This document shows, piece after piece, positions 3,120-64,000 of a stretch of DNA of 64,000 bases. Origin of the DNA: an uncultured Butyrivibrio sp. (lineage in GTDB: Bacteria > Bacillota > Clostridia > Lachnospirales > Lachnospiraceae); contig CAMVLM010000002.1 in assembly GCA_947168335.1 (NCBI GenBank), positions 1 to 64,000 of the forward strand. Direction: 5' to 3'. A model generated the notes under the pieces. It had not been told where the DNA came from, ran no database searches, and saw only the letters and a program-made list of their open reading frames with translations. Position 1 is the first letter of the stretch. Every line of letters begins with the position of its first letter. The position numbers were made by a program, and so were the translations under genes.

Positions 3120-4358
3120 ATGAGAAATTGCATTATCGCCCAGTCAGGCGGTCCAACTGTTGCTATCAACGCTTCTTTAGCCGGAGTAATATCAGAGAAT
3201 ATTACCGGCCATTTCTTCGATACAGTTTATGGTTCTCTAAATGGTATAACCGGTATTTTAGACGGCAGAGTCCTTAATCTTTCAGAAATCTCATCATCTC
3301 AAAATGATTTCATTGATACACTAAAAGTTACACCAGCTATGTATCTTGGTTCCTGCAGGCATAAGCTTCCTGCCATTTCAGAAAACAGTGAAGAATACAA
3401 AAAAATATTCAGTTTTTTCGATGAGTTTGAAATTGACACCTTTTTCTATATAGGCGGCAATGATTCTATGGACACGGTTCTTAAGCTCTCTGATTATGCC
3501 CGTAAGATCGGAAGTGATGTAAAAGTAATCGGAATTCCCAAGACAATAGACAATGATCTTATTGGAACCGACCATACACCCGGTTTTGGAAGTGCAGCAA
3601 AATATATTGCTTCATCCATCAGGGAGATAGCACACGACACATATATTTATCCTGTTAAATCAGTTACCATCGTAGAAGTAATGGGAAGAGATGCCGGTTG
3701 GCTTACAGCAGCTTCAGCTCTCGCACGAAACGAGTACTCTGCTGCACCTCATCTCATCTATCTTCCGGAAAAGCCTTTTGATATCGAGGCATTTATCGAA
3801 GACGTTCAGAAGCTGCTTAAGACCAATAACAGTGTTGTGGTTGCAGTTTCAGAAGGCATCCGTGATAAGGATGGCAACTATATCAGCGCTTCAGGTACAG
3901 TCACGGATAACTTCGGACACCAGCAGCTTAGCGGCGCAGGGAAAGCACTTGAGGGCATAATTGCAGACAGACTCGGAATAAAAGTACGCTCAGTTGAGGT
4001 TAATATTCTTCAGCGCTGCGCATCACACCTTGCATCTCTGACAGACCTTGACGAATCTATGGAACAGGGCAGAAAAGCCCATCTTCTTTCACAGGCCGGT
4101 GAGTCCGGGGTGATGGTGGTGCTTAAGAGAACAAGTGATGATCCTTACCTCACAGAAACCGATTGTCTTGATATTCACAAAATTGCCAACGAAGTAAAAT
4201 CAGTTCCCACTGATTGGATAAATCCCGAAGGAAATGACGTAAACGAGAAAATGCTTACCTATCTTCGTCCTCTGATAACCGGCGAACCAAAAGTCAGATA
4301 TGAAAACGGTCTTCCTGTTTACCTTAGCGTAGAGCATCTTACATCACACATTATATAA
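3120..4358 (+). CDS. 6-phosphofructokinase, pyrophosphate-dependent type
   Basis: IAQSGGPTVAINAS, GGNDSMDT, PKTIDNDL, MGRDAGWL motifs of the PFK family; the Asp in GGNDS fits the PPi-dependent group. Confidence 0.9.
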   Translation: MRNCIIAQSGGPTVAINASLAGVISENITGHFFDTVYGSLNGITGILDGRVLNLSEISSSQNDFIDTLKVTPAMYLGSCRHKLPAISENSEEYKKIFSFFDEFEIDTFFYIGGNDSMDTVLKLSDYARKIGSDVKVIGIPKTIDNDLIGTDHTPGFGSAAKYIASSIREIAHDTYIYPVKSVTIVEVMGRDAGWLTAASALARNEYSAAPHLIYLPEKPFDIEAFIEDVQKLLKTNNSVVVAVSEGIRDKDGNYISASGTVTDNFGHQQLSGAGKALEGIIADRLGIKVRSVEVNILQRCASHLASLTDLDESMEQGRKAHLLSQAGESGVMVVLKRTSDDPYLTETDCLDIHKIANEVKSVPTDWINPEGNDVNEKMLTYLRPLITGEPKVRYENGLPVYLSVEHLTSHII

Positions 4359-4365
4359 AAAGCAT

Positions 4366-4387
4366 CCCCTGTTCATTTGAACAGGGG
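4366..4387. terminator. Bidirectional intrinsic terminator between convergent PFK and pilT
   Basis: CCCCTGTTCATTTGAACAGGGG palindrome between convergent genes. Confidence 0.75.
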
Positions 4388-4394
4388 GTTACTA

Positions 4395-5456
4395 TTATCT
4401 CAATATTTTTGCCTGCATTGTATCAGGATCCTGCGCATATTGCACAGCCATATCACGGGCAATCTTACCGCCCTTGCAGAGCTCCACTATAGCATCATCC
4501 ATAGTGATCATTCCCTGCTTCCTGTTGGTCTGCATTATGGTAATAAGCTGATGAGTCTTGCCCTCACGAATCATATTCCTGACTGCGCTGTTAACATGCA
4601 TGACTTCAAAAGCCGCAACTCTGGAATAACCGTCCGATGTAGGAATAAGCTGCTGGGATATAACCGCCTCCAAAACATTGGCAAGCTGTATCCTGATCTG
4701 CTGTTGCTGATGCGGCGGGAAAACATCTATAATTCTGTCCACCGTGCTGGCCGCACCTATTGTGTGCAGCGTGGACAGCACAAGATGTCCTGTCTCTGCA
4801 GCTGTAATCGCTGTACTTATGGTTTCAAGATCTCTCATTTCACCCACAAGAATTACATCCGGATCCTCACGAAGCGCCGCCCTTAATGCATTGGCATAGC
4901 TGTTGCTGTCCAGGCCGACTTCTCGCTGGTTTACAATACTTTTATTATGCTGATACAGGAACTCGATAGGATCCTCAAGGGTTATAACATGAGCCTCTCT
5001 GTTGTCATTTATCTTATCGATTATGGATGCAAGCGTAGTTGATTTACCCGAACCCGTAGGACCTGTTACAAGAACCAGTCCTCTCTGTCTCTGATAAAGA
5101 TTAATAACCGACTGAGGAATTCCAAGCGTTTCCGCGTCAGGAATCTGTGTAGCCACAAGTCTTATAGCCATGGCTACTGAACCTCTCTGTTTGAAAACGT
5201 TAAGTCTGAAACGTCCCAGTCCCATAACAGAAAAGGACATATCATGCTGTCCGTTTGCTTCAAGAAGTTCCTTCTGCTTTACACTCATTATCTCATCTGC
5301 TACAGCCTGAGTGTCGTCAGGCAGCATTCTGTTGTAGCCTTCGAGCTCAATAAGCTTGCCATTTACTCTCATCTTGGGCGGAATACCAACTGTAATATGT
5401 ACATCTGAGGCTCCCGCTGCCTTGGCAGTTTTCAGAATCTCTTCAATTTTCGACAT
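4395..5456 (-). CDS. pilT: Type IV pilus twitching motility ATPase PilT
   Basis: GPTGSGKSTTLASIID, EDPIEFLY, LREDPDVILVGEMRDLETISTAITAAETGHLVLSTLHT. Confidence 0.95.
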   Translation of the reverse strand: MSKIEEILKTAKAAGASDVHITVGIPPKMRVNGKLIELEGYNRMLPDDTQAVADEIMSVKQKELLEANGQHDMSFSVMGLGRFRLNVFKQRGSVAMAIRLVATQIPDAETLGIPQSVINLYQRQRGLVLVTGPTGSGKSTTLASIIDKINDNREAHVITLEDPIEFLYQHNKSIVNQREVGLDSNSYANALRAALREDPDVILVGEMRDLETISTAITAAETGHLVLSTLHTIGAASTVDRIIDVFPPHQQQQIRIQLANVLEAVISQQLIPTSDGYSRVAAFEVMHVNSAVRNMIREGKTHQLITIMQTNRKQGMITMDDAIVELCKGGKIARDMAVQYAQDPDTMQAKILR

Positions 5457-49598: not shown

Positions 49599-50873
49599 TC
49601 AGGCCTCGTCTATAGCCTTGCCTATATCGTGACGCATGTATTTATTATCAAATGTAACCCACTCGGTGGCCTCATAAGCCTTGGCTCTGGCCTCAGAAAG
49701 AGTATCCCCCTTGGCGGTAATTCCAAGTACTCTTCCTCCGTTAGTTACTATTTTACCATTTTCATCAAATTTGGAACCGGCATGGAAGCAATAGTAACCA
49801 TCCTTGCCCTTGAAGTTCTCAAGGCCTTTGATCTCTTTGCCCTTCTCATAGCTTACGGGATATCCCTCTGATGCGAGTACCACGCAAACCGCTGCCTTAT
49901 CCTCAAACTTAAGATCAACCTTGTCGAGAGTTCCATCGATTACTGCTTCACAAACTTCAATCATGTCTGTTTCAAGTCTGGGAAGAACAACCTGAGCCTC
50001 GGGATCGCCGAATCTTGCATTATATTCGAGAACCTTGGGACCATCCTCTGTGAGCATAAGTCCGAAGAAAATTACTCCCTTGAACTCTCTGCCCTCTGCC
50101 CTCATGGCATCAACTGTCTTCTGATAAATATGTTCCTTACAGAACTCATCAACCTCTTTTGTATAGAAGGGGCTGGGTGAGAAATTACCCATACCTCCTG
50201 TATTAAGGCCTGTATCACCGTCTCCGGCACGCTTATGATCCTGCGCTGAACTCATAAGCTTAATTGTCTTACCATCAACAAAAGATAAAACAGAAACCTC
50301 ACGGCCTGTCATAAATTCCTCAATGACAAGTTTCTTACCTGCATCACCGAATTTACGATCCTCCATGATCTCACGGACGCCGTCCTCTGCCTGCTCCTTT
50401 GTCTCGCAGATAAGAACACCTTTACCAAGTGCAAGTCCGTCAGCCTTAAGTACGATAGGGAATTTTGCTGTCTCAAGATACTTAAGTGCATCCTCAGGAT
50501 TGTCAAAAGTCTCATAGGCTGCTGTAGGAATTCCGTACTTCTTCATCAGATCCTTGGAGAAAGCCTTACTTCCTTCAAGTATAGCTGCATTCTTCCTGGG
50601 TCCGAATACTCTGAGGCCCTCTGCCTCAAAAGCATCTACAATACCGCCCACAAGAGGATCATCCATTCCTACAATTGTCAGGTCGATTTTCATATTCTTT
50701 GCAAATCTGACCAGTTTATCAAACTCCATGGGTGTGATGGAAACACACTCACAAAGCTCTGCAATACCCGCATTACCCGGTGCGCAGTAAAGCTTATCAA
50801 CATGCTTACTTCTGGAGACAGCCTCTGCGATTGCGTGCTCTCTGCCACCTCCACCGACGATCAAAACATTCAT
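49599..50873 (-). CDS. purD: Phosphoribosylamine-glycine ligase
   Basis: MNVLIVGGGGREHAIAEAVSRS, TGGMGNFSPSPFYT, EYNARFGDPEAQVVLPRL. Confidence 0.97.
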   Translation of the reverse strand: MNVLIVGGGGREHAIAEAVSRSKHVDKLYCAPGNAGIAELCECVSITPMEFDKLVRFAKNMKIDLTIVGMDDPLVGGIVDAFEAEGLRVFGPRKNAAILEGSKAFSKDLMKKYGIPTAAYETFDNPEDALKYLETAKFPIVLKADGLALGKGVLICETKEQAEDGVREIMEDRKFGDAGKKLVIEEFMTGREVSVLSFVDGKTIKLMSSAQDHKRAGDGDTGLNTGGMGNFSPSPFYTKEVDEFCKEHIYQKTVDAMRAEGREFKGVIFFGLMLTEDGPKVLEYNARFGDPEAQVVLPRLETDMIEVCEAVIDGTLDKVDLKFEDKAAVCVVLASEGYPVSYEKGKEIKGLENFKGKDGYYCFHAGSKFDENGKIVTNGGRVLGITAKGDTLSEARAKAYEATEWVTFDNKYMRHDIGKAIDEA

Positions 50874-50889
50874 ACCTTACTCCTAATAC

Positions 50890-51534
50890 TTATAAAAACT
50901 CCGGATCATAGTCCTCTATAAGAACCTTGCCATCCTCAATTTTCACTTTACCATTGGCAATAAGATCAATTGCCTTCGGAAGAATCTTCCATTCTGCCTG
51001 CTCCATAATACGCTGCTGGAGTACCTTGGCTGTATCATCCGGCAATATGTAAACTGCCTTCTGTAAAATAATCGGTCCTGTATCCGTGCCCTCATCAACG
51101 AAATGAACTGTGGCACCTGACACTCTGACGCCTCTCTTAAGGGCCTCTTCATGAACCTTGAGCCCGTAAAAACCCGTACCGCAAAATGACGGTATAAGTG
51201 AAGGATGAATGTTGATAATCCTTCCTGCAAAAGCCTTTACGATCTTCTCCGGAATAACCACAAGGCATCCGGCAAGTACGATAAGATCAGGGTTTTCTTT
51301 TATCAAAAGATCATAAAAAGCCTCATTAAAGGCTGCTCTGTTTTCAAATTCAGCAGGAACCAGAACTTTTGTATCAATGCCATGCTTTTTAGCTCTCTCC
51401 AATGCATAAGCATTCCTGTTGTTGCTAAAAACCATGCCGATCTTTGTATTGGTAATGGTTCCGTTATCTATGGCATCAATTATCGCCTGCAGATTAGTTC
51501 CTCCACCGGAAACCAGAACTGCTATATTCAGCAT
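50890..51534 (-). CDS. purN: Phosphoribosylglycinamide formyltransferase
   Basis: [51 protein letters not shown]. Confidence 0.96.
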
Positions 51535-52562
51535 AATGTAACTCCCTTTTCTCCGGCTTCTACGCTGCCGACAATGTAGCATTCCTCACCTGAAGCCTTG
51601 ATGGCATTCATGGTCTTTTCTGCATCTTCAGGAGCTACTGCGATAACCATACCAAGACCCATGTTATATGTATTATACATCATATCTTCGTCAAGGTTAC
51701 CTTTTTTCTGCATAAGCTTGAAAAGTGCAGGAAGCTCATAGCTGTCCTTTTTGATGACTGCTCTGGTACCATCGGGAAGCATTCTCGGAATATTCTCATA
51801 AAAACCACCGCCTGTGATGTGGCTGCAGCCCTTAAGAGTAACGCCTGCCTTTTTGATTTCCTTGAGCATCTTAACGTAAATTCTTGTAGGAGCAAGAAGC
51901 GCCTCGCCAAGAGTGCATCCAAGTTCATCATAATATGTCTCAAGGCTTTCTTTGGTCATCTCGAAAACCTTACGTACAAGTGAAAATCCATTGCTGTGAA
52001 CTCCGCTTGAAGCTACACCGATAAGAGTATCTCCGGGCTTTATTGTGCTGCCGTCGATCATATCCTCTTTGTCAACAACACCAACCGCAAAACCTGCAAG
52101 ATCATACTCATCCTCAGGCATAAGTCCGGGATGCTCTGCAGTCTCACCACCGATAAGCGCACATTCTGACTGCTTGCAGCCTTCTGCAACACCCTTAACG
52201 ATCTGAGCGATCTTCTCGGGATAATTCTTTCCACACGCAATATAATCCAGGAAGAACAAAGGCTCACCACCGGCGCATATTACATCATTTACACACATAG
52301 CTACACAATCAATACCGATGGTATCGTGCTTATCCAGCAAAAATGCCAGCTTGATCTTGGTTCCTACACCATCTGTACCTGACAGAAGCACAGGGTCCTT
52401 CATATTTTTAATGTTCGCAAGGGAAAATGCTCCGGAAAATCCTCCAAGACCACCGAGTACCTCCGGTCTCATTGTTTCCTTTACAAATCCTTTGATCATA
52501 TCCACTGACTTGTAACCAGCTTCAATATCAACACCTGCATTTTTGTAGTTAAGTTCTGACAT
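51528..52562 (-). CDS. purM: Phosphoribosylformylglycinamidine cyclo-ligase
   Basis: [75 protein letters not shown]. Confidence 0.97.
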
Positions 52563-52588
52563 GTTCTCCTCCAAAAATAATATAAAGC

Positions 52589-53089
52589 TTAATAGTTCTT
52601 GTATCCAACTTCCTGAAGATGGGCATCTTTTTTAATAACGGCTTCCTTCAGTCCGTTTGAATAATCCTTGAGTTTTTTAAGGAGCTCGCTATCAGATGTA
52701 GCAAGAATCTTTGCAGCAAGAAGTCCTGCATTCGCTCCTCCGCCGATGGCAACTGTTGCTACCGGTATTCCGGTAGGCATCTGTACTATACTATATAATG
52801 AATCCCTGCCTCCAAGTGATGTGGTATGCATAGGGATTCCAATGACAGGCATAGGGAAGATAGCCGCACACATTCCCGGAAGATGAGCAGCCATGCCCGC
52901 TCCGGCAATAATTACCTTAAAGCCCTTCTCCTCTGCACTCTTTGCATAATTAAAAAATTCATCCGGCTCACGATGTGCCGAAATGATGTTCATTTCATAG
53001 GAAATACCGAGCTCATCCAGAATCTCAGCTGCCTTTGACATAACAGACATATCTGAATCAGATCCCATTACTATCCCAACCTGTGCCAT
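52589..53089 (-). CDS. purE: 5-(carboxyamino)imidazole ribonucleotide mutase
   Basis: [66 protein letters not shown]. Confidence 0.97.
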
Positions 53090-53185
53090 TTTCTCCTCCG
53101 ATCACGCAATGAAAAATCACTGCAAATTCAATTTCACGTCTTTACGTTACCCTTTATACCACAATATTTGGTAGTATTTCAACCT

Positions 53186-53923
53186 CTATAACAACACCTT
53201 TGACAGCTTTGTGAATATTTTTTTCTGAGTCTTCAAAACTGCCTGCAGTTCTCTGTCAAAATCATCATCAGAATAGTTTTCGGAATTTTTTTCAACGTCC
53301 AGAGCCATAATTGCAAGATCCGTTGCCCCCACCAGTCTCGCATTGTTTTTAAGGTCCCGTAAAACATTGATCTTTTCACCGATATTCTCATTTTTAATCG
53401 CTTTTTCCAACCTCAAAAGAATATCGCTTTTTACATACTCACGCAATAGCTGAATATAAAGGGAAGAATCTGACAGACAGTAATACTTTGACTTTTCAGG
53501 TTTAAGAAATGAAAACCGGGAGTATAGCTCTTCCCATTCATCCTCCGGTCTGCAGCAGACAGAAAACCGCTTCAGGATCCCACATATTTTTTCTGCCGAA
53601 AAAGGCTTGCTCATATATCCCGAAAAACCCACGTCAAGATAGAAATCCCTGTCTCCGTTTTCATCATCGGCAGTGATCATGATGACCGGTGTATTCTCAT
53701 TGATTCTTTCTTTTTTTATTATCTTCATAGTCTCAACGCCGTCCATTACCGGCATAAGATGGTCCATGAAAACTATGCTGTAGGTATTTTGGCGCATAAG
53801 TTCCAGAGCTTCCTCACCGTTTGAAGCAATATCGCTGGGTAAACCAAAATCCGATACCATTTCAGAAAGAAGCTCCGCGTTCATTTCCGCATCATCTACA
53901 ATTAGTGCTTTACCTACACCCAT
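53186..53923 (-). CDS. Response regulator (REC) with HPt-like C-terminal domain lacking the phospho-His
   Basis: KALIVDDAEMNAELL, VFMDHLMPVMDG, MITADD, GYMSKPFS; tail INVLRDLKNNARLVGATDL aligns with HPt VHALKSSARIIGAGEL. Confidence 0.88.
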   Translation of the reverse strand: MGVGKALIVDDAEMNAELLSEMVSDFGLPSDIASNGEEALELMRQNTYSIVFMDHLMPVMDGVETMKIIKKERINENTPVIMITADDENGDRDFYLDVGFSGYMSKPFSAEKICGILKRFSVCCRPEDEWEELYSRFSFLKPEKSKYYCLSDSSLYIQLLREYVKSDILLRLEKAIKNENIGEKINVLRDLKNNARLVGATDLAIMALDVEKNSENYSDDDFDRELQAVLKTQKKIFTKLSKVLL

Positions 53924-53926
53924 GCG

Positions 53927-56596
53927 TCATTCCTCATGATACATAAATGCCATTCCGAAAGCTCCGGGCCCATGGATTGCTGCCATGGCAGCCGACTCCT
54001 TGTTCACAGTCACTTCCTTAAACATAACCTCATTCTCGATCCATCTGAGTATATCGTCAATATCATCAGAAGGGAAACCTGTATGTACCATCATAACCTT
54101 CCGCTGATCAATGCTCTTTACATTGGCCAGGGCCGTCTTGATATAATTTCGTTTCGCACGTTCGTTATAACCGATCAGAATCTTAAAGAGCATTCCCCTT
54201 CCTTCTCTGAAAATAATCGCAGGTCGCATCATGAATATCCTGTTCATGCTCTGAAGACGTCTGCTTGCTCTTCCCTTCCTTATCAGATACTCAATGTCAT
54301 TAACAAAGAAACTGGTATGAATATTCTTCTTTATTCTATTTAAGCTGTCTATGCACTCGTTTACATCTGCTCCTGATTCAAGCAGACTGTACGCCTCCAT
54401 AACAAGCAGTCCCATTCCGCAGGACAGACTCTCGGAATCAACAATGCGTACATTATCAAATGCCTTGGCTGCCTCCATGGCCGCTTCATAACTTCCCGAC
54501 GCTTTTGATGACATGGTAATGTGGATAATATTGTCGGCCTCTTCAAGGTGATCAGCGAAAAATGCCTCATAATCATCAATCGTGGGAATTACAGGCTCTA
54601 AATCATATCCTCCGTCAACAGCCATATATTTAAGCACTCCTTCAGTATCTACTTCTACATCATCCACAAAAGATCCATTCCTGTTTTTAATATAGAAGTG
54701 AATGATCGGAATTCTCATTTTTTCAAGCACTTCTTTGGGAAGGTCACAGGCACTTTCAGAAGTGATAAGTATAGGAAGCTTATCTCTTTTTCTGAAGCTC
54801 TCCTGTGCAAACTTATTATTTGCACCAATAGTCTTATAGATAAGTTCAGATGGCAGAAGTCTTAAAAGTGTGTTCTCAAGAACTTCTCCGCTCACAGGTT
54901 TCTGGATATATCCGTCAAAACCTGCCATACGATATCTGGTTCTTTCATCTGCAGAGGAATTGGCGGTTACTATAACAATTGGAGTTTCTCTGCAAAGTCC
55001 GCCGATCTGGCTTCTTATCTGTCTTATGCACTCAATACCATCCATATCTTCCATTTCCTGATCCAGGAAAATACAGTCATAGTGAGTATTTGCACATCTC
55101 TCCAGGCACTGCCTCGGTCCGGATTCCTCATCAATTATCATCTTGGTCTGACGCAACAGTCTGGCGGTTGCTTTTCTGTTCATGGGATTATCGTCAACAA
55201 TAAGCACACGCGCTCCCGGCGCTTCAAAACTCTGCTGATAAACATCACCCGCACCGGCGCTTCTCAGTTTATTTACATCAACTATACCGATGGAATCTTC
55301 TTTTCTTATTCCCTGAGGAATGGTAACGCTGAAGGTTGAGCCCTTGGTATAAATACTGTTGACTCTTATCTCTCCATTCATCTGCTCAGTCAGCTGTTTT
55401 GCGATGGGAAGTCCAAGACCTGTTCCGATCTCATTCTTAACTTCCGCGCCACTGACTCTTGCGAATTCATCAAAAATATGCGGAAGCATCTCTCTCTTGA
55501 TACCGATACCCGTGTCTTTTACTGAGAAGATAAGATCAACGTTCTTCTCATCATGTCTCTTGCACTGGGCGGTAAAAGTAATACTACCCTCTTCCGTATA
55601 TTTGACCGCATTACCCAGAATATTTATAAGGATCTGTTCTATTCTTATATCATCGCCCCAAAGCTTTGAAGGAATATCAGGAGCAATGTTTACCACCAGC
55701 TTAAGTCCCTTTTCATAGGCAAGCTCCCAGATAAGATTGAGAGTATCCGCCATAAGTGTCACTGTACTGTATTCAACAGGCTGAATTTCCATTCTGCCTG
55801 ACTCAATTTTTGACAGATCCAGAAGGTCATTGATAAGAGTGAGCAGAATTCTGCTTGCACCTCTTATATTTCTGGAACATTCAAGAGTTTCCTCCTCTTT
55901 GGAAGCTCTTAATATAAGTTCATTAAAGCCTACGATTGAATCAAGCGGAGTTCTTATCTCGTGACTGACATTGGAAAAGAAATCGTTCTTCGTATTACTG
56001 AGTTCCTCGATTTCCATCTTCTGCTTTTCAATAAGTCTGTTCTCCGAGGAATAGATTCTGTTCTCCAAAAGTATCATTGCGGTTATAAGAAGGCTCACAA
56101 GAATCACGCTGGTATAAGAATCGAAATAAGCAGCTGCGTTGGTATGAACAGCGACAAGTTCAGGCCGCTGGTACGCAATGTAATATGCTATTGCAGAAGT
56201 AATGGTACCCATGACAAGAAGTACATATTTTCTTCTTCCTTCCACAGTAAGACCAATATAAGCAAAACCAAAAACAAACCATACAGGCGATCCGCCAAAT
56301 ATACTGCCTCCGAATATGAACGTAAAGGGAAGAAGAATTATTACCATAACTGCAGCAATAAGCGTAGCACCCATCTGCACCTTACGGTTCTTTTTGGTCA
56401 TCATTACAATGATAAGAAAGATGATAAAACAGGCTGCTATTATAATGGTATTTCTTATGTCATCCTGAACGACTATACCGATAAAAATAAGCAGGAACAG
56501 TGCCGTAAGACCAACTATGGGAATTACTGTGAAAGCTCTCTCCTGAAGTGTTTTATTGTGGTCATCCGCTCCTTTGAAAAATTTTTCAAGATTCAT
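53927..56596 (-). CDS. Hybrid sensor histidine kinase (multi-TM, HisKA, HATPase, REC) fused to C-terminal DegV domain
   Basis: FFSNVSHEIRTPLDSIVGF, GTGLGLPIAKQL, RVLIVDDNPMNRKAT...FLDQEMEDMDG...IQKPVS; then DegV motifs LPILITSESACDLPKEVLEK, ITMSSKASGSYEAA, VRIVDSESLSCGMGLLVMEA, FFVNDIEYLIRKGRASR, IHGPGAFGMAF. Confidence 0.92.
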   Translation of the reverse strand: MNLEKFFKGADDHNKTLQERAFTVIPIVGLTALFLLIFIGIVVQDDIRNTIIIAACFIIFLIIVMMTKKNRKVQMGATLIAAVMVIILLPFTFIFGGSIFGGSPVWFVFGFAYIGLTVEGRRKYVLLVMGTITSAIAYYIAYQRPELVAVHTNAAAYFDSYTSVILVSLLITAMILLENRIYSSENRLIEKQKMEIEELSNTKNDFFSNVSHEIRTPLDSIVGFNELILRASKEEETLECSRNIRGASRILLTLINDLLDLSKIESGRMEIQPVEYSTVTLMADTLNLIWELAYEKGLKLVVNIAPDIPSKLWGDDIRIEQILINILGNAVKYTEEGSITFTAQCKRHDEKNVDLIFSVKDTGIGIKREMLPHIFDEFARVSGAEVKNEIGTGLGLPIAKQLTEQMNGEIRVNSIYTKGSTFSVTIPQGIRKEDSIGIVDVNKLRSAGAGDVYQQSFEAPGARVLIVDDNPMNRKATARLLRQTKMIIDEESGPRQCLERCANTHYDCIFLDQEMEDMDGIECIRQIRSQIGGLCRETPIVIVTANSSADERTRYRMAGFDGYIQKPVSGEVLENTLLRLLPSELIYKTIGANNKFAQESFRKRDKLPILITSESACDLPKEVLEKMRIPIIHFYIKNRNGSFVDDVEVDTEGVLKYMAVDGGYDLEPVIPTIDDYEAFFADHLEEADNIIHITMSSKASGSYEAAMEAAKAFDNVRIVDSESLSCGMGLLVMEAYSLLESGADVNECIDSLNRIKKNIHTSFFVNDIEYLIRKGRASRRLQSMNRIFMMRPAIIFREGRGMLFKILIGYNERAKRNYIKTALANVKSIDQRKVMMVHTGFPSDDIDDILRWIENEVMFKEVTVNKESAAMAAIHGPGAFGMAFMYHEE

Positions 56597-59064
56597 GAAA
56601 CATTCCCTCCATAAGCCCTTGTTATATCAGTAGCAAGGGTTTCAAGTTCGTTTTTGAGAGAATCGTGATTTGCGACTATGTAAGCCTCCCAGTTTTCGCG
56701 GGCTGCTTTCTCTATTTCTTTTGCATCATTTGAAAGCCCCTCCGCACCGATAAGTCTTGCGGCGAGCTTTAATCCATTGATCTTTACGCTGTAATTCTTC
56801 CAGTCCTTGTTATCGTAGTATTCCTGAAGCTCATCGAATATTTCATCCGTTTCAGTTGCAAACTCAAGAAGTACTTCTCTGTAAAATGCCTCATTATTTC
56901 TGCAGACCTTCATGCCCTTTTCAACATTGATAGAGGAAATAGAAGGCACGCTTCCGTTAAATTCAGTCTCCTCAACTTCTTCTTCATCTTCAATTTCCAC
57001 ATACTGCCACATGGTAGACGGCAGAAGTTTTTTAAGAACCCTCTCAAGTTCAGAAGTCTCAATGGGCTTGGGAATAAACTCATCAAATCCTTCTTCCATA
57101 AACATCTCTCTCACACCACTGACCGCATTGGCTGAGAAGGCGATAATACTGCTGTTGTCATTTGCTCCCTGATTTTTCCTGATAAGTTTCATGGCCTCAA
57201 CGCCATCCATTCCGGGCATCATATGGTCCATAAATACAACGTCATATTTCTTGGATTCACACTCATGAACGGCTTCCATACCGCTTCTTACAAGAGTAAC
57301 CTCTATGTCATAGCCTGACAGTATGCCCTTGGCCACCATCAGATTCATATCTTCATCATCTACAACAAGAGCCTTGACTCCGCTAAATGACAGTTTTTTG
57401 CTGCTGCCTGAAGGATCAAACTCCCAGAGAGTCATCTTTCTGCTGATTGCGCTTGCCATTGAATGACTGTAGACAGGTTTTCTGACGAACAGAAGATTAC
57501 TGTTCCTCGGAGCTTTGAATTCCGGTGACACAGCAACTACTATATACATATCCTGCTTCAGACTTTCAAAATACTGCCTGTCCTCGTTATATTCCTCTTC
57601 TGCTATGAACAGATGAGTGACATTCACCTGCGCGAGCAGTTTTTTCAGTCCTTCAATGTCAGAAACCCTCTGCATGGTCATTCCAAGCCCCTTAAGCAGA
57701 TTGGCAAACATTGTATTGTAATATTCTCTGACAGCAAGGGAAGCGAACTTATTATTCTTGATGTATATAACACCGGTGATAGCCTCTTTATTCGGAACAT
57801 CCACGCTGGGCTTGGGATCTGAAACCTTCTGTGGAATACTTACAACCACCTTGGTTCCCTTTTTCTTTTCACTCTCAATCCTGACAAAGCCGCCCATTTT
57901 GCTTACAAAGCCGTAAACTATGGAAAGACCAAGTCCTATACCTTCTGCTCTTCTGTTTCTTCCGGAATCAAGCTGATACGCAGCGTTTGAAACCTTTACA
58001 AGCTCCGACTGCGTCATTCCTATTCCGGTGTCAGTAACTTCTATGCAAAGGTTAACCCCGTACTCCTTGGGTCTTGTGAAAACCTTGAGATTCACACAAC
58101 CGTTTTCATCCGTGAATTTAACTGCATTTACAAGAACGTGTTTTATGATTCTCTTTATTCTTGCAGCATCACCGATCATTCTTGATGGGATATTGACATC
58201 CATATCCACAATGATCTCTGGCTGCTTGGTTTTTCCGTATCCGCGCTGGTCGGTAACAATATCATTTATGATAGAAGAAATATGATAATCATCTTCAGAA
58301 AGAATAAGACTGTCGGTATCAATCTCCGTGAAATCAAGAATATCCTCAATTCTTCCAAAAAGTCTTCGGCCTGCATTCTGAATTGAATTGATGTCAGCTA
58401 TCTTCTTTTCACTTTTCTCATCCTTAAGAAGGATTTCGGAAAGACCAATAACAACATTGATGGGAGTTCTTAATTCATGTGATACATTAGCCATGAAGTC
58501 TTCAGATTTTTCCTTCATGGAATTGAGTTCTTCCTCCAGATAATCGGATGTGCCTCTGGATACCTTAAGCAGTTCACAGACATATCCGGCCATCTGGGAA
58601 GCCAGAAGTACAGATACCACACTCAGGAGTACCTCCTGAATTCTGATGTTCCCAAGATCCTCTAATTTAAACACTATGAGTATGGAATGATAAAGAATGA
58701 TCATACAATAAGCGCCAAGAAATATCCTTAAGGCCTCCTTTTCCTCAGTAAGTGAAAAAAGGAGCATAGCAAGAACTATGATCAGCGCCACATTGCTTAT
58801 TGTTGAAAAATGAATACCATAATAGAACGTTGCCAGAGAAATAAAACCGGCATAGATATAAATCCTGAATTTATAGACAAACTGTTGGGATGCATAAAGA
58901 TTAAAAGAAATGATTGCACCAAGAAACAGCACGGGAATAACCCACAGCTCCCATTCCAATGTAATGGAAGCCAGTGCGATCCCTATTGAATACAACGAAT
59001 AACAGATCAGAATGACTATCTGTACACTTCTACGGGTTTCCTCATCCTTCTGTTTCCTGTTCAT
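56593..59064 (-). CDS. Hybrid sensor histidine kinase (multi-TM, HisKA, HATPase, pseudo-REC, REC, HPt-like)
   Basis: FMANVSHELRTPINVVIGLSEIL, VLVNAVKFTDENG, GIGLGLSIVYGFVSKMGG, VKALVVDDEDMNL...FMDHMMPGMDG...PKPIE; C-terminal VKINGLKLAARLIGA. Confidence 0.92.
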   Translation of the reverse strand: MNRKQKDEETRRSVQIVILICYSLYSIGIALASITLEWELWVIPVLFLGAIISFNLYASQQFVYKFRIYIYAGFISLATFYYGIHFSTISNVALIIVLAMLLFSLTEEKEALRIFLGAYCMIILYHSILIVFKLEDLGNIRIQEVLLSVVSVLLASQMAGYVCELLKVSRGTSDYLEEELNSMKEKSEDFMANVSHELRTPINVVIGLSEILLKDEKSEKKIADINSIQNAGRRLFGRIEDILDFTEIDTDSLILSEDDYHISSIINDIVTDQRGYGKTKQPEIIVDMDVNIPSRMIGDAARIKRIIKHVLVNAVKFTDENGCVNLKVFTRPKEYGVNLCIEVTDTGIGMTQSELVKVSNAAYQLDSGRNRRAEGIGLGLSIVYGFVSKMGGFVRIESEKKKGTKVVVSIPQKVSDPKPSVDVPNKEAITGVIYIKNNKFASLAVREYYNTMFANLLKGLGMTMQRVSDIEGLKKLLAQVNVTHLFIAEEEYNEDRQYFESLKQDMYIVVAVSPEFKAPRNSNLLFVRKPVYSHSMASAISRKMTLWEFDPSGSSKKLSFSGVKALVVDDEDMNLMVAKGILSGYDIEVTLVRSGMEAVHECESKKYDVVFMDHMMPGMDGVEAMKLIRKNQGANDNSSIIAFSANAVSGVREMFMEEGFDEFIPKPIETSELERVLKKLLPSTMWQYVEIEDEEEVEETEFNGSVPSISSINVEKGMKVCRNNEAFYREVLLEFATETDEIFDELQEYYDNKDWKNYSVKINGLKLAARLIGAEGLSNDAKEIEKAARENWEAYIVANHDSLKNELETLATDITRAYGGNVS

Positions 59065-59073
59065 ATCTGCACC

Positions 59074-59436
59074 TCACATAAATGCAAGAAATATTAATAC
59101 TCCCATGCATATCAGTGACAGAACATTGAGAACTATTCCCACATTTGGGAAGAAAGTAAATATATCCCTCTCTGTTCTGGATATAATTCCAAGAATAAGC
59201 CCTGCTACTGAATACACAATACAGAACAGAACTGCCGCAGCATATTTAACCTCGGCCTGACCCCCGTTTTCAAATGAAAGATAAATGGAATAGGCTATCG
59301 TACATACCGACAACAACCCCAGTGCAGCTGAAAGTACCCCCTTTTCCGGATGCTTCTTATCCGTAAAAACATATCTCTCTCTTCTGCGCCTGGGTAGCCT
59401 GATCCTGAACTTTTTTTCTTTTCTCTGCTCCTCCAT
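59074..59436 (-). CDS. Small membrane protein, DUF6142-like
   Basis: FTDKKHPEKGVLSAALGLLSVCTIAYSIYLSF, three predicted TM helices. Confidence 0.65.
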   Translation of the reverse strand: MEEQRKEKKFRIRLPRRRRERYVFTDKKHPEKGVLSAALGLLSVCTIAYSIYLSFENGGQAEVKYAAAVLFCIVYSVAGLILGIISRTERDIFTFFPNVGIVLNVLSLICMGVLIFLAFM

Positions 59437-59445
59437 AAATACTTA

Positions 59446-60138
59446 TCAGCCTATAGATATTCCGGCTGCTCCATACTCCTTGTAATACTCGTCAATTGAC
59501 TTTTTGATTTCCTTATTAAGGATAACCTCACCGTCAATTGCTCTGTTATAAAGGTAGCTTACTACTTCCTGCATTGTTACGATTGACTGTGCTTCGAAGC
59601 CGTAGCGCTCCTTTATCTCATCCAACGCACTCTGATCTGAGTCCTGTCCCTTCTCCTGTCTGTTCAGAGAAACCATGAGGCCTACAATATCACAATCAGC
59701 CTGCTCTCTGATGATCGGTACAGTCTCCTCGATTGATTTGCCGGATGTTGTAACATCCTCGATTATCATAACTCTGTCACCATCGCGAAGCTTTGAACCA
59801 AGGAGAATTCCTTTATCACCATGGTCCTTGATTTCCTTGCGGTTTGAACAGTATCTGATTTCTCTTCCGTAAAGCTCACTGATTGCAACTGAAGTTACAA
59901 CTGAAAGCGGAATTCCTTTATATGCAGGTCCAAATAAAACATCAAATTCGAGTCCAAAAGTGTCATGAATTGCTCTTGCATAATATTCCCCAAGCTTTTT
60001 AAGCTGAGATCCGGTTACGTAAGCTCCTGCATTCATAAAAAACGGAGACTTTCTTCCGCTCTTAAGGGTAAATTCCCCGAACTTCAGAACATTACTGTCG
60101 ATCATAAACTCAATGAACTCTTCTTTGTATCTTTCCAT
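59446..60138 (-). CDS. pyrE: Orotate phosphoribosyltransferase
   Basis: FTLKSGRKSPFFMNAGAYVTGSQL, GPAYKGIPL, GDRVMIIEDVTTSGKSIEETVPII. Confidence 0.96.
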   Translation of the reverse strand: MERYKEEFIEFMIDSNVLKFGEFTLKSGRKSPFFMNAGAYVTGSQLKKLGEYYARAIHDTFGLEFDVLFGPAYKGIPLSVVTSVAISELYGREIRYCSNRKEIKDHGDKGILLGSKLRDGDRVMIIEDVTTSGKSIEETVPIIREQADCDIVGLMVSLNRQEKGQDSDQSALDEIKERYGFEAQSIVTMQEVVSYLYNRAIDGEVILNKEIKKSIDEYYKEYGAAGISIG

Positions 60139-60234
60139 TTTTCCCTAATACTCCTCTTATATATTTTCTATTTAATACAGACGTCTGCTCTGCATACACT
60201 TTTCTTAAAAATGCGCATAGCACTTGACCATATA

Positions 60235-60250
60235 TGTGAATTGTATCACA
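60235..60250. promoter_or_regulatory. CRP/FNR-like palindromic site in the pyrE/pyrF divergent region
   Basis: TGTGAATTGTATCACA = TGTGA-N6-TCACA. Confidence 0.4.
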
Positions 60251-60321
60251 TGGCATATGTGTGAACAATTAAGTAAAAGTAAAAATTTAGAAAACATAAT
60301 ATGCCATCTGCTATTCCAGTG

Positions 60322-60350
60322 TTAACTTATCCAAAAAAATAATGTATACT
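60322..60350 (+). promoter_or_regulatory. Putative pyrF promoter
   Basis: TTAACT-N17-TATACT. Confidence 0.5.
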
Positions 60351-60386
60351 ATCAAAAGCAATTTCAAACCACTTAAAGGAGAGCAT

Positions 60387-61307
60387 ATGATCAGAAAACT
60401 TATTGATGGAATTAAGAGAACAGAAGCACCTATTGTTGTCGGTCTTGACCCCAAGGTGGATTTTATCCCCAAAAGGATTCTGGACAAAGCAATCTCACAG
60501 CACGGCGAATCAGCAGAAGCTGTTGCGGAGGCTTTTTGGCAGTTCAACAAAGAGATCGTAGATCACATACATGACCTTGTACCTGCAGTTAAACCTCAGA
60601 TAGCAATGTACGAACAGTATGGCATCCCCGGTCTTATCGCATATAAAAAGACAGTTGACTATTGCCACGAAAAAGGCCTTCTTGTAATTGCTGATGTAAA
60701 AAGAGGCGACATTGGTTCAACTTCCGAATCCTATGCTCTCTCTCATCTTGGTGGAACAAAAGTAGGAAGCAGCATTGTCAAAGGATTCGATGCAGATTTT
60801 GCAACAGTTAATCCTTACCTCGGATCAGATGGTGTTAAACCTTTCATCAACGTCTGCAACGAATTTGACAAGGGTATATTCGTCCTTGTAAAAACATCTA
60901 ATCCCAGCAGCGGTGAACTTCAGGACAAGATTGCAGACGGCAAGCCCCTCTACGAAACTGTGGGTGCTCTGGTTGAGGAATGGGGTGCTCAGTCAATGGA
61001 CGGCGATTACAGTAACGTCGGCGCTGTTGTAGGAGCCACATACCCTGAGATAGGCAGGATTCTTCGTGATGTTATGCCCCACGCATTCATCCTTGTTCCG
61101 GGTTACGGCGCTCAGGGCGGTAAAGGTTCTGACCTTGTTCACTTCTTTGACAAGGATGGCCTCGGTGCTATCGTTAATTCCTCAAGAGGAATCATAGCAG
61201 CATGGAAAAATGAGAAGTACGGCGATCCTGCAAAAGAGCTTCTCGGCGAAGCTGCAAGAGCAGCAGTTATCGACATGAAGGAAGACATCGCAGGCGCTCT
61301 TAAATAA
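60387..61307 (+). CDS. pyrF: Orotidine 5'-phosphate decarboxylase
   Basis: PIVVGLDPKVDFIP, VKPQIAMYEQYGIPG, VIADVKRGDIGSTSESYA, LVPGYGAQGGKGSD. Confidence 0.97.
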   Translation: MIRKLIDGIKRTEAPIVVGLDPKVDFIPKRILDKAISQHGESAEAVAEAFWQFNKEIVDHIHDLVPAVKPQIAMYEQYGIPGLIAYKKTVDYCHEKGLLVIADVKRGDIGSTSESYALSHLGGTKVGSSIVKGFDADFATVNPYLGSDGVKPFINVCNEFDKGIFVLVKTSNPSSGELQDKIADGKPLYETVGALVEEWGAQSMDGDYSNVGAVVGATYPEIGRILRDVMPHAFILVPGYGAQGGKGSDLVHFFDKDGLGAIVNSSRGIIAAWKNEKYGDPAKELLGEAARAAVIDMKEDIAGALK

Positions 61308-61316
61308 TCAGATGTA

Positions 61317-61363
61317 AAAAGTCCCGTATCTGCCTTTTACAAGGGGATACGGGGCTTTTCTTT
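61317..61363 (+). terminator. Intrinsic terminator after pyrF
   Basis: AAAAGTCCCGTATC...GATACGGGGCTTTTCTTTT. Confidence 0.85.
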
Positions 61364-61382
61364 TAATCAGGATTACTGTTAT

Positions 61383-62159
61383 TTAATCAGCATATGGGCC
61401 ATAGAAGAACTCATCAATTGCATGAATAAGTTTTGCCTTTGGCATGGTCTTTAAGAGATATTTTTCAGGCTTAAGTGCAGCTACCGAAACCACACTTTCC
61501 TTATCGCTCTTTGAAGTAAGGAACATTACGGGAATCTCTTTTATCTCATCTTTTGTTCTGATACTCTTCAAAACCTGAGGACCATCCATATTTGGCATCA
61601 TGTAGTCAAGGAGCACCAGATCAACTGCATTTGACTGTAAGAAGCTAAGGGCCATTGCACCGGAACTTGCCATGTAAACTCTGTATTTAACAGAAAGCCA
61701 TGTCTTAATCATTCTCAACATGGTTCCGTCATCATCCACGACAAGAATCTTCTTTTTCAGATCCTCGCTCTCATTGTTCTTAACAACTGTCTCAAGATCA
61801 TCTGACAGCATCTTAACATCAAGAGGTCTTAAATAGGTTTCAGTAACTTTAATCTTGGAAAGGAATTTGGAGGTGTATTCAAGCTCGCCCGAATTTCCCA
61901 CTTCATATAAGAAAAAGCGTTCCGTATCTATTGCATCATTCAGATATTTAAGCATTTCAACGCCGTTTTTCTCAGGATCAGCAGGATCAATATCCCCAAG
62001 GTAAAGAACATATAATTGTGGTCTGTTTTCAATTGCCAAAACAGCTTCCTTGGAAAACTCACACTGAACAACTTCATAGCGTTCCTTCTCAAGTCCCTTG
62101 GCAATTGCATTGACCATAAAACTTTTTTGAGCTCCAATAAGCAGTACTCTCTTCTCCAT
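61383..62159 (-). CDS. Stand-alone response regulator: N-terminal receiver-like domain plus C-terminal REC, no output domain
   Basis: C-terminal KILVVDDDGTMLRMI...LVLLDYMMPNMDG...MFLTSK...LLKTMP; N-terminal RVLLIGAQKSFMVNAIAKGL lacks the acidic pair. Confidence 0.85.
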   Translation of the reverse strand: MEKRVLLIGAQKSFMVNAIAKGLEKERYEVVQCEFSKEAVLAIENRPQLYVLYLGDIDPADPEKNGVEMLKYLNDAIDTERFFLYEVGNSGELEYTSKFLSKIKVTETYLRPLDVKMLSDDLETVVKNNESEDLKKKILVVDDDGTMLRMIKTWLSVKYRVYMASSGAMALSFLQSNAVDLVLLDYMMPNMDGPQVLKSIRTKDEIKEIPVMFLTSKSDKESVVSVAALKPEKYLLKTMPKAKLIHAIDEFFYGPYAD

Positions 62160-62280
62160 AGCTACTTCCTTCCGCAAGCAAAATTTCTATTCACACACAG
62201 ATTACTAATAATAAACTCACAAAAGTCAAAAGTCAATCATAAATAATAATTTATCAAACATTATTTTTGCTATATGTGAT

Positions 62281-64000
62281 TTAGAGCATTTCCAGCAGTC
62301 CATCCCTGTCCACAGCAGATAAAAGCCTCTTTATATTTTTATATTTGTCCTTGAAATCATCCGGCATTCTGTAGTCATCCATCATGGCCACAACATCATC
62401 CGCACTGTCAAAATATGAACCTTCAACAAATTCCTTAAGACTCTTAAGGGCTCCTTCCAATTCTTCAGGTTCGATAAGCGGCTTCTGCAATTCGTCCTCT
62501 TTGCTTTCTTCCGCCCGTACCAAAGGTTCCAGAAAACCTGAATATTTCCTGTAATGCTCTAAAAGCTCGGGAGTTCTTCTTTCAATCTCATCCTTATCTT
62601 TTTTGTTTCCGCACTGTTCAAGATAAGCTGCAAGATTTGAAAGCTCTGTGGCTCCGATTACCCTTGCTGAACTCTTCAGACCGTGAACATAGGTAGTATA
62701 GTTTTCAAAATCACCGTATTTCCATGCATCCTCTATGGACAGAGCTTTTGATTCTATGGACAGGGCAAAATCTGTCGCAACGCTCATAAGTGCCCCGGGT
62801 CCTCCACAGTTCTTGGAACCTGCATCAAAATCGATACCCTCAAGATTGGTCATTATCTGTATGGCAGCCATATCATCGCTGCTTATCACATCCGTAGGAA
62901 TGGAATCATCAAAATCCGAATCCCCGGGTCTTGAAACCAGTTCATCAGGCAGATTTTTAAGTATTGTATCCTCAAGCCTTCCGGAATCAACAGGTTTTGG
63001 AAGATATCCCGTAAATCCCTCTTTAAGATACATCTCCCTTGCCCCGCTTATTACATTGGCTGTCAGTGCATATACGGGCACATCTTTGTTAAGGTTATCT
63101 TCCAGATCTTTCATTGAATGCAGCGTTTCAATTCCGTCCATCTTAGGCATTCTGTGATCAAGGAAGATAATGTTGTACTTATTCTCACAAACCATGTTGA
63201 GAGCTTCAAATCCACTCTCCGCTATATCAACCTGAATTCTTGTGGGCTTAAGCAGCCCCTGGATAACCGTGAGATTAGCCATGGTATCATCCACCACAAG
63301 TATTCTTGCTTCAGGTGCATGGAAACTCTCATGATATGTTTCCTGCCCCATCAGTGTCTCTTCATAGGTAGCTGCAAAGTCTCCTATCGGATTCCAGTTA
63401 AGCACTCTTTGTTTTACACTGAAAGAAAACTCGCTTCCCTTGCCATACTCACTGCTTACAAGAAGCTTGGAATCCATAAGTGCAAGGAGCTGCTTGACTA
63501 TATTCATGCCAAGTCCGGTACCCTCGATGGTTCTGTTCCTGCTCTCCTCGATTCTCTCAAAGGGCGAAAACAGCTTATCCATATCCTCTTTCCGGATTCC
63601 GATACCCGTATCCCTAACTCTGATCCTGAGCAGGATATTCTCGTCATCAAGCTTTTTATGGTCGATAAAAAGACTTACCGATCCTTCATTGGTGTACTTG
63701 ATCGCATTGGTAAGAATGTTCATGGCACACTGCTTGATGCGGATTTCATCACCCATGAGAATGCACGGTATTTCAGTGGAAATCTCGGTCTTAAAGTCGA
63801 GGTTCTTTCCCTTCATACGAACTTTACTGGTATTTATAAGATCATTCACCATTGAGCTGAAGTCATACTCAACGGGAATTATCTCCGTTTTACCCGCTTC
63901 GATTCTGGAGAAGTCCAGAATGTCATTAACAAGTCCAAGCAGCAGTTTTCCTGAACTGTTAACATTGGAAGCGTACTTTATAATATCAGGGTCCTTACTC
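62281..64000 (-). CDS. Hybrid sensor histidine kinase, C-terminal part (HisKA end, HATPase, REC, HPt); runs off the window end
   Basis: Open frame continues upstream of the listed ORF: SKDPDIIKYASNVNSSGKLLLGLVNDILDFSRIEAGKTEIIPVEYDFSSMVNDL; NILTNAIKYTNEG, GTGLGMNIVKQL, ILVVDDTMANL...FLDHRMPKMDG, HPt VHGLKSSARVIGA. Confidence 0.93.
   Translation of the reverse strand, partial: SKDPDIIKYASNVNSSGKLLLGLVNDILDFSRIEAGKTEIIPVEYDFSSMVNDLINTSKVRMKGKNLDFKTEISTEIPCILMGDEIRIKQCAMNILTNAIKYTNEGSVSLFIDHKKLDDENILLRIRVRDTGIGIRKEDMDKLFSPFERIEESRNRTIEGTGLGMNIVKQLLALMDSKLLVSSEYGKGSEFSFSVKQRVLNWNPIGDFAATYEETLMGQETYHESFHAPEARILVVDDTMANLTVIQGLLKPTRIQVDIAESGFEALNMVCENKYNIIFLDHRMPKMDGIETLHSMKDLEDNLNKDVPVYALTANVISGAREMYLKEGFTGYLPKPVDSGRLEDTILKNLPDELVSRPGDSDFDDSIPTDVISSDDMAAIQIMTNLEGIDFDAGSKNCGGPGALMSVATDFALSIESKALSIEDAWKYGDFENYTTYVHGLKSSARVIGATELSNLAAYLEQCGNKKDKDEIERRTPELLEHYRKYSGFLEPLVRAEESKEDELQKPLIEPEELEGALKSLKEFVEGSYFDSADDVVAMMDDYRMPDDFKDKYKNIKRLLSAVDRDGLLEML

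Follow-up and report, generated by a model that had tools for sequence, protein, structure and literature searches.

Described systems comparable with the DegV kinases

The fatty-acid carrier FakB1 of Staphylococcus aureus holds its ligand through Thr62, Ser95, Ser171 and His270, which form a hydrogen-bond network with the carboxylate; Arg173 acts as a latch that is required for catalysis, and Arg205 is involved in both FakA docking and membrane binding (PMC8892158). Among described signaling proteins, the sensor kinase SaeS of S. aureus is inhibited by free fatty acid through a mechanism that was left open in the report of this effect (PMC5539427), and it differs from the kinases considered here in having no DegV module. 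In the RpfC-RpfG system of DSF quorum sensing (Xanthomonas and Lysobacter), the REC-HD-GYP protein is driven by a hybrid kinase whose signal is of the fatty-acid type (PMC9758175). C18 mono-unsaturated fatty acids inhibit Rv1625c, a six-TM cyclase of Mycobacterium tuberculosis, by way of the membrane domain (PMC12505454), and the quorum receptor CqsS of Vibrio has the same six-TM design (PMC4821796).

In the present work, we describe a locus in which a DegV domain, unlike FakB, sits on a membrane hybrid histidine kinase. It lies in a window of 64,000 nucleotides, the whole stretch of DNA that was analyzed, from an uncultured Butyrivibrio sp. of the family Lachnospiraceae (contig CAMVLM010000002.1, positions 1 to 64,000). 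Our literature search, with many subscription papers outside its reach, found no paper on a DegV-kinase fusion, and the first-pass annotation of this DNA likewise knew of no functional description.

A complete DegV domain fused to a hybrid histidine kinase

The protein of interest, termed kinase B, is made up of the following parts:

53927..56596, minus strand: kinase B, 889 aa, a single open frame with the order 6TM-HisKA-HATPase-REC-DegV (Pfam, NCBIfam)
56012..56596, minus strand: six-helix membrane sensor region of B, residues 1-195 (AlphaFold, Foldseek)
55796..55990, minus strand: HisKA of B, residues 203-267 (Pfam PF00512, E 3.5e-17)
55313..55657, minus strand: HATPase_c of B, residues 314-428 (Pfam PF02518, E 1.8e-26)
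54872..55207, minus strand: Response_reg (receiver, REC) of B, residues 464-575 (Pfam PF00072, E 7.9e-25)
53942..54772, minus strand: DegV/FakB-type domain of B, residues 609-885 (PF02645, structure, residue census)

The first-pass annotation had read membrane segments, HisKA, HATPase and REC in the 889-aa frame and a DegV domain at its C-terminus; the Pfam domains and six predicted TM helices bear out the former, and the latter is matched by PF02645 at residues 609-885 with a score far above the cut-off (E=1.8e-38; 132.9 bits vs. 27), its computed limits agreeing with the span of 53927-54778 that had been proposed. The NCBIfam model TIGR00762 (DegV) also scores well above its threshold (154.4 bits vs. 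a cut-off of 99.7), and the DegV profile is matched by 48/48 relatives. The fold had been called near-complete, which was right as to its identity and understated its completeness, positions 2-278 of the 280 in the profile being covered.

An AlphaFold model of residues 605-889, made with 47 relatives, has a mean pLDDT of 92.8, and in a Foldseek search DegV/FakB structures fill all of the first 45 places among the PDB matches (TM-score 0.76-0.88). They include palmitate-bound FakB1 of S. aureus (5uto, TM 0.86) and the FakA-FakB2 complex of S. suis, and the lid, which is shared with FakB1 and FakB2 of S. aureus, is predicted with lower confidence, following the FakB pattern. By profile and by three-dimensional fold, the C-terminus of B is a full member of the DegV fold family.

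DhaQ is a co-activator of the dihydroxyacetone kinase operon and a ligand-carrying paralogue of a kinase subunit. It also appears in the Foldseek list of the DegV model (2iu4) and offers a precedent for a kinase ligand subunit turned regulator, although it differs in being a relative of the DhaK fold, in belonging to a transcriptional system and in being soluble.

The catalytic His, the N box, the G box and the REC Asp and Lys are intact in the window copy and in 9/9 orthologues, and the same residues are intact in nearly all aligned relatives; judged by its residues, the window protein looks functional. The idea that a frameshift or misassembly had joined two genes finds its only example in locus L150, where HK-REC and DegV are separate overlapping ORFs beside the partner kinase described below; it is refuted, and its probability is negligible, because the architecture is full length in 8 syntenic orthologues and in more than 100 other loci. 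The HK-REC-DegV fusion is real, and we regard the domains, the fusion, the gene order and the residue counts as close to certain.

Distribution and origin of the fusion

The fusion is carried by more than 100 loci of the Lachnospiraceae. A survey of 298 genomes of this family, one per genus with few exceptions, yielded 57 near-full-length relatives of B in 44 genomes, and a scan of GTDB genomes yielded 478 related loci; among the 80 loci fetched, the few in which DegV does not share its ORF with a kinase domain are truncated or broken. Within the genus of the window the fusion occurs in 27 of 41 species, 8 of which hold a syntenic orthologue with 54-68% identity. Beyond the Lachnospiraceae, a single fused protein (G526) turned up in a different family of the order, and none in a sample of 398 genomes of the phylum, where all top matches were standalone DegV proteins of about 290 aa. 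The same profile separates the two classes, with a minimum of 278 bits for fused proteins and a maximum of 259 bits for standalone ones. A maximum-likelihood tree sets all fused DegV domains apart by a branch with 100/100 support, and they differ from FakB in forming this separate clade.

Three loci show DegV in another form beside the partner kinase (kinase A). One of them is L150. In L152 a separate DegV gene (3691-4542) follows kinase A and overlaps its end by 4 bp; this protein is sister to all fused forms in the tree (support 97/94) and already has Ile205 and Asn270, two residues typical of the fused domains, which suggests that the change of role preceded the fusion. L152 is likely a pre-fusion state. 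In L151 (3411-6305) the order is permuted, with DegV at the N-terminus of a TM-HK-REC protein next to A, in a contig that ends on the REC side.

The genome of the window encodes two further DegV kinases, viz. HK-REC-DegV-HPt (C24) and HK-DegV-HPt without REC (C64), as well as FakA, elsewhere, and four standalone DegV proteins. The third of its DegV kinases (C64, L047:3471-5921), whose H box is altered to SHEISSV and whose DegV is followed by an intact HPt, is perhaps a pseudokinase. In L058 and L074 a tandem pair of DegV kinases stands behind one A kinase. The frame of L014 (3987-6980) probably suffers from a fault of assembly: close to its end it passes into a proline stretch of low complexity that contains undetermined residues.

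A conserved partner kinase and its neighbors

Kinase B is encoded together with a second hybrid kinase, the start of B overlapping the end of its gene:

56593..59064, minus strand: partner kinase A, 823 aa, TM-HisKA-HATPase-REC-HPt-like, 4-bp overlap with the start of B (Pfam)

Of 112 non-redundant loci, 95 have an A gene of HK-REC or HK-REC-HPt type directly upstream of B, most of the remainder being cut by a contig end, and 60 of 97 A-B pairs have a spacing of exactly -4 bp. The adjacency is reciprocal in the family survey: 53/57 B proteins lie beside an A and 53/59 A proteins beside a B, and of the other 6 A proteins 3 are at a contig edge and 3 are those of L152, L150 and L151. HPt is found on A in most loci, and elsewhere on B after DegV (with lengths near 680 aa for A and 1145 aa for B in that case) or in a gene of its own. 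Such mobility of the HPt points to a common relay in which both kinases take part.

The position directly upstream of A is taken by a REC-HD-GYP gene in 52/112 loci, by a REC alone in 9 and by GGDEF/REC genes in 3, about half of the loci having no HD-GYP gene adjoining A; an SBP_bac_3 lipoprotein gene directly follows B in 35/112 loci; these counts are over loci related by descent and do not represent independent events. The HD-GYP motif HHExxDGxGYP is intact in 60/63 proteins. Among 20 control kinases (the closest hybrid kinases without DegV from the same family, Lachnospiraceae, in which a divergent DegV was sought and not found), adjacent HD-GYP and adjacent SBP_bac_3 genes are both absent (0/20 each), and an HK-REC partner lies beside 1/20. 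In L049, L050 and L115 a gene for a two-domain hemerythrin stands behind the DegV kinase, replacing or following the SBP_bac_3 lipoprotein.

The A-B unit is a conserved gene cluster larger than a single kinase. The first-pass annotation had proposed the window protein as a candidate for an undescribed system; the conserved fusion without a published description that we could find upholds this, whereas the partner genes on both sides of B had been missed. As read from these sequences, the conserved DegV-kinase pairing looks like an undescribed lipid-linked signaling system.

By analogy, this arrangement resembles RpfC-RpfG, in which a multi-TM hybrid kinase with REC and HPt feeds a REC-HD-GYP phosphodiesterase. 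It differs in having two kinases and a DegV module, in occurring in another lineage, and in that no RpfF-type synthase was noticed next to the DegV-kinase genes. A REC-HD-GYP partner stands beside the kinase in 52/112 loci of the family and is absent next to the window pair.

Ligand-pocket residues of fused and standalone DegV domains

We compared 113 fused domains, numbered on FakB1, with 24 standalone ones, a small set picked as high-scoring matches. The positions of Thr/Ser62, Ser95 and Arg173 are shared with FakB by most fused members: position 62 is Ser or Thr in 108/113 (Thr in 24/24 standalone), position 95 is Ser in 96/113 (24/24) and position 173 is Arg in 92/113 (24/24), while Ser171 is present in 61/113 fused domains. 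Two positions set the fused domains apart. Position 270, His in 22/24 standalone domains, is Asn in 105/113 fused ones, and hence the carboxylate site is changed even in typical members. Position 205, where the alignment is anchored by the Gly just after it, is Arg in 23/24 standalone but in 0/113 fused domains, which have Ile, Met or Val instead. The pattern suggests that the ligand pocket has been kept but modified and that FakA docking has been lost; with Arg205 missing from every fused domain, DegV has the look of a ligand sensor rather than of a carrier of fatty acid. From these residues a role as sensor rather than carrier is probable across the family, and an acyl or lipid ligand in its typical members is slightly favored.

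Of the two roles raised by the first-pass annotation, a lipid-sensing phosphorelay fits the family on the counts at positions 62, 95 and 173 and draws little support from the window copy. The other, a signaling-controlled fatty-acid carrier, would have the phosphorelay gate the loading or release of a fatty acid, and DegV would then present this acid to FakA to be phosphorylated. The FakB fold of the domain, the retention of the Arg173 needed for catalysis (also in 9/9 members of the window clade) and the presence of FakA in the genome agree with such a carrier, but the absence of the FakA-docking and membrane-binding Arg205 from every fused domain disfavors it, as do the replacement of His270 in nearly all of them and the four standalone DegV proteins of the genome, which can serve as carriers; we consider it very improbable.

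The sensor might instead respond to a lipophile that is not a fatty acid, e.g. a hydroxyketone, an alcohol, an isoprenoid or another neutral lipid. With His270 exchanged for Asn in most family members and for Ile in the window clade, the carboxylate site lacks its charge-balancing residue, and the six-helix region of B resembles the lipophile receptors CqsS and Rv1625c (PMC4821796, PMC12505454); however, the Ser95 and Arg173 retained in most members still suit a carboxylate, and this alternative seems rather improbable.

The window locus and its clade

The remaining members of the window locus are as follows:

56632..56877, minus strand: degenerate HPt of A, with Asn in place of the phospho-acceptor His (20.2 bits for Pfam Hpt, under its threshold of 24.6)
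53186..53923, minus strand: 245-aa protein, REC with an HPt-like tail without His, in 4/8 syntenic orthologue loci
59074..59436, minus strand: small DUF6142 membrane protein upstream of A, synteny-conserved directly before A
61383..62177, minus strand: REC protein of 264 aa, a likely relay partner, with similar REC genes elsewhere
62281..63852, minus strand: hybrid kinase with intact HPt, a possible HPt donor; its longer frame exits the window end

The nine orthologues share a syntenic block of the order (HK-REC-HPt)-(REC)-pyrF-pyrE-DUF6142-A-B, followed by the REC protein with HPt-like tail in some and then by purE-purM-purN-purD; its first two genes (HK-REC-HPt and REC) are absent or unmatched in two loci. 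In nine species of the genus the A-B pair is situated within this pyr/pur biosynthesis block (49599-63852 in the window); the pyrF gene of the window runs on the opposite strand, whereas that of most relatives is colinear. The genes flanking B on both sides (56593-59064 and 53186-53923) belong to the same signaling cluster, and REC proteins similar to that at 61383..62177 follow the two other DegV kinases of the genome. No HD-GYP or SBP_bac_3 gene neighbors the window locus.

The phospho-acceptor His in the HPt of A is lost in 9/9 orthologues (N, E or S) and present in nearly all other A proteins, so the relay, if it needs an HPt, would have to draw on another source, e.g. the kinase at 62281. 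An HPt domain was found in this kinase and in that at 29304, as the first-pass annotation had it.

The DegV domain of the window has Pro62, Ser95, Lys171, Arg173 and Ile270: Ser95 and the Arg173 latch are kept, Thr62, Ser171 and His270 are lost, and the Thr62/Ser95/Ser171/His270 carboxylate network of FakB is not preserved. Throughout the clade of nine, position 62 is P, V or A and position 171 is K, L or M; at position 95 two members have Ser and seven have Gly, while position 270 is Ile in 9/9 and is followed by an invariant His. The identity of the orthologous DegV domains to that of the window (about 49-64%) is close to that of the TM and kinase parts. With Thr62 and His270 gone, Ser95 mostly Gly and the HPt His of A lost, fatty-acid binding by the window copy is doubtful; FakB-style binding appears unlikely in the clade, and that the window copy itself binds free fatty acid is likewise unlikely on the residues seen.

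These losses bear on a further explanation, in which DegV is a ligand-free structural module, i.e. a dimerization or docking surface for A or for an output regulator, with its pocket empty or closed. The window clade keeps DegV despite the loss of most head-group residues, and the N-terminal DegV of L151 indicates that its position relative to REC is not fixed. Against this, the pocket hydroxyls and Arg173 are conserved at 81-96% in the family, beyond the need of a passive scaffold, and the predicted lid retains its FakB-like lower confidence; the explanation is possible and on balance not expected.

The membrane sensor region

Residues 1-203 of B are modeled by AlphaFold as six TM helices (pLDDT 89). 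The best PDB match in Foldseek is Rv1625c/Cya of Mycobacterium tuberculosis (TM 0.62, probability 1.00, E 0.08), well ahead of the next match, while a sequence search of the region against PDB gave no match. B shares with CqsS and Rv1625c a six-TM membrane region ahead of the signaling part, but it differs from them in having no detected sequence similarity to any PDB chain, and the modeled likeness to Rv1625c is weak at this E value and suggestive as a lead only. Related TM regions also occur in kinases without DegV.

Proposed mechanism and significance

Starting from the observed domains, fusion, gene order and residue changes, we infer a ligand, a heteromer, a path of phosphate and an output. 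The best explanation as a whole, to which we give an even chance, is that DegV is a FakB-derived ligand module that has become part of a phosphorelay of paired hybrid kinases. A and B would probably operate as one membrane unit, in which B receives inputs through its six-helix membrane region and its cytosolic DegV module. Phosphate would pass from the kinase His to REC, then to an HPt on A, on B or in a separate gene, and finally to an output receiver, which would most often be a REC-HD-GYP c-di-GMP phosphodiesterase. To judge by its residues, the DegV pocket of most family members could still accommodate an acyl chain or a similar lipid, and the domain, without FakA docking, would report this ligand rather than hand it to lipid synthesis. 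In the window clade, where a folded DegV is kept and the carboxylate network has been dismantled, the module has probably changed its ligand or regulates without one. The best-supported model is a double-kinase relay that responds to lipid, with turnover of c-di-GMP as its common output; it would work in the manner of RpfC-RpfG.

Our tentative reading, held at somewhat less than even confidence, is that in a conserved and so far undescribed system of the Lachnospiraceae a FakB paralogue freed from FakA has become the lipid sensor of a paired-kinase relay that sets c-di-GMP levels, with a derived branch, its pocket changed, in the pyr/pur cluster of one genus. If this is true, it would provide a direct link at the sequence level between a fatty-acid-carrier fold and two-component signaling, and the loss of Arg205 together with the change of His270 to Asn would be a residue signature that tells sensors from carriers. 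It would also provide a model, open to clear tests, for the conversion of an enzyme subunit into a sensor, in which a neofunctionalized gene first stood beside the kinase and fusion followed, and Lachnospiraceae of the gut could read free lipid and adjust c-di-GMP-controlled behavior.
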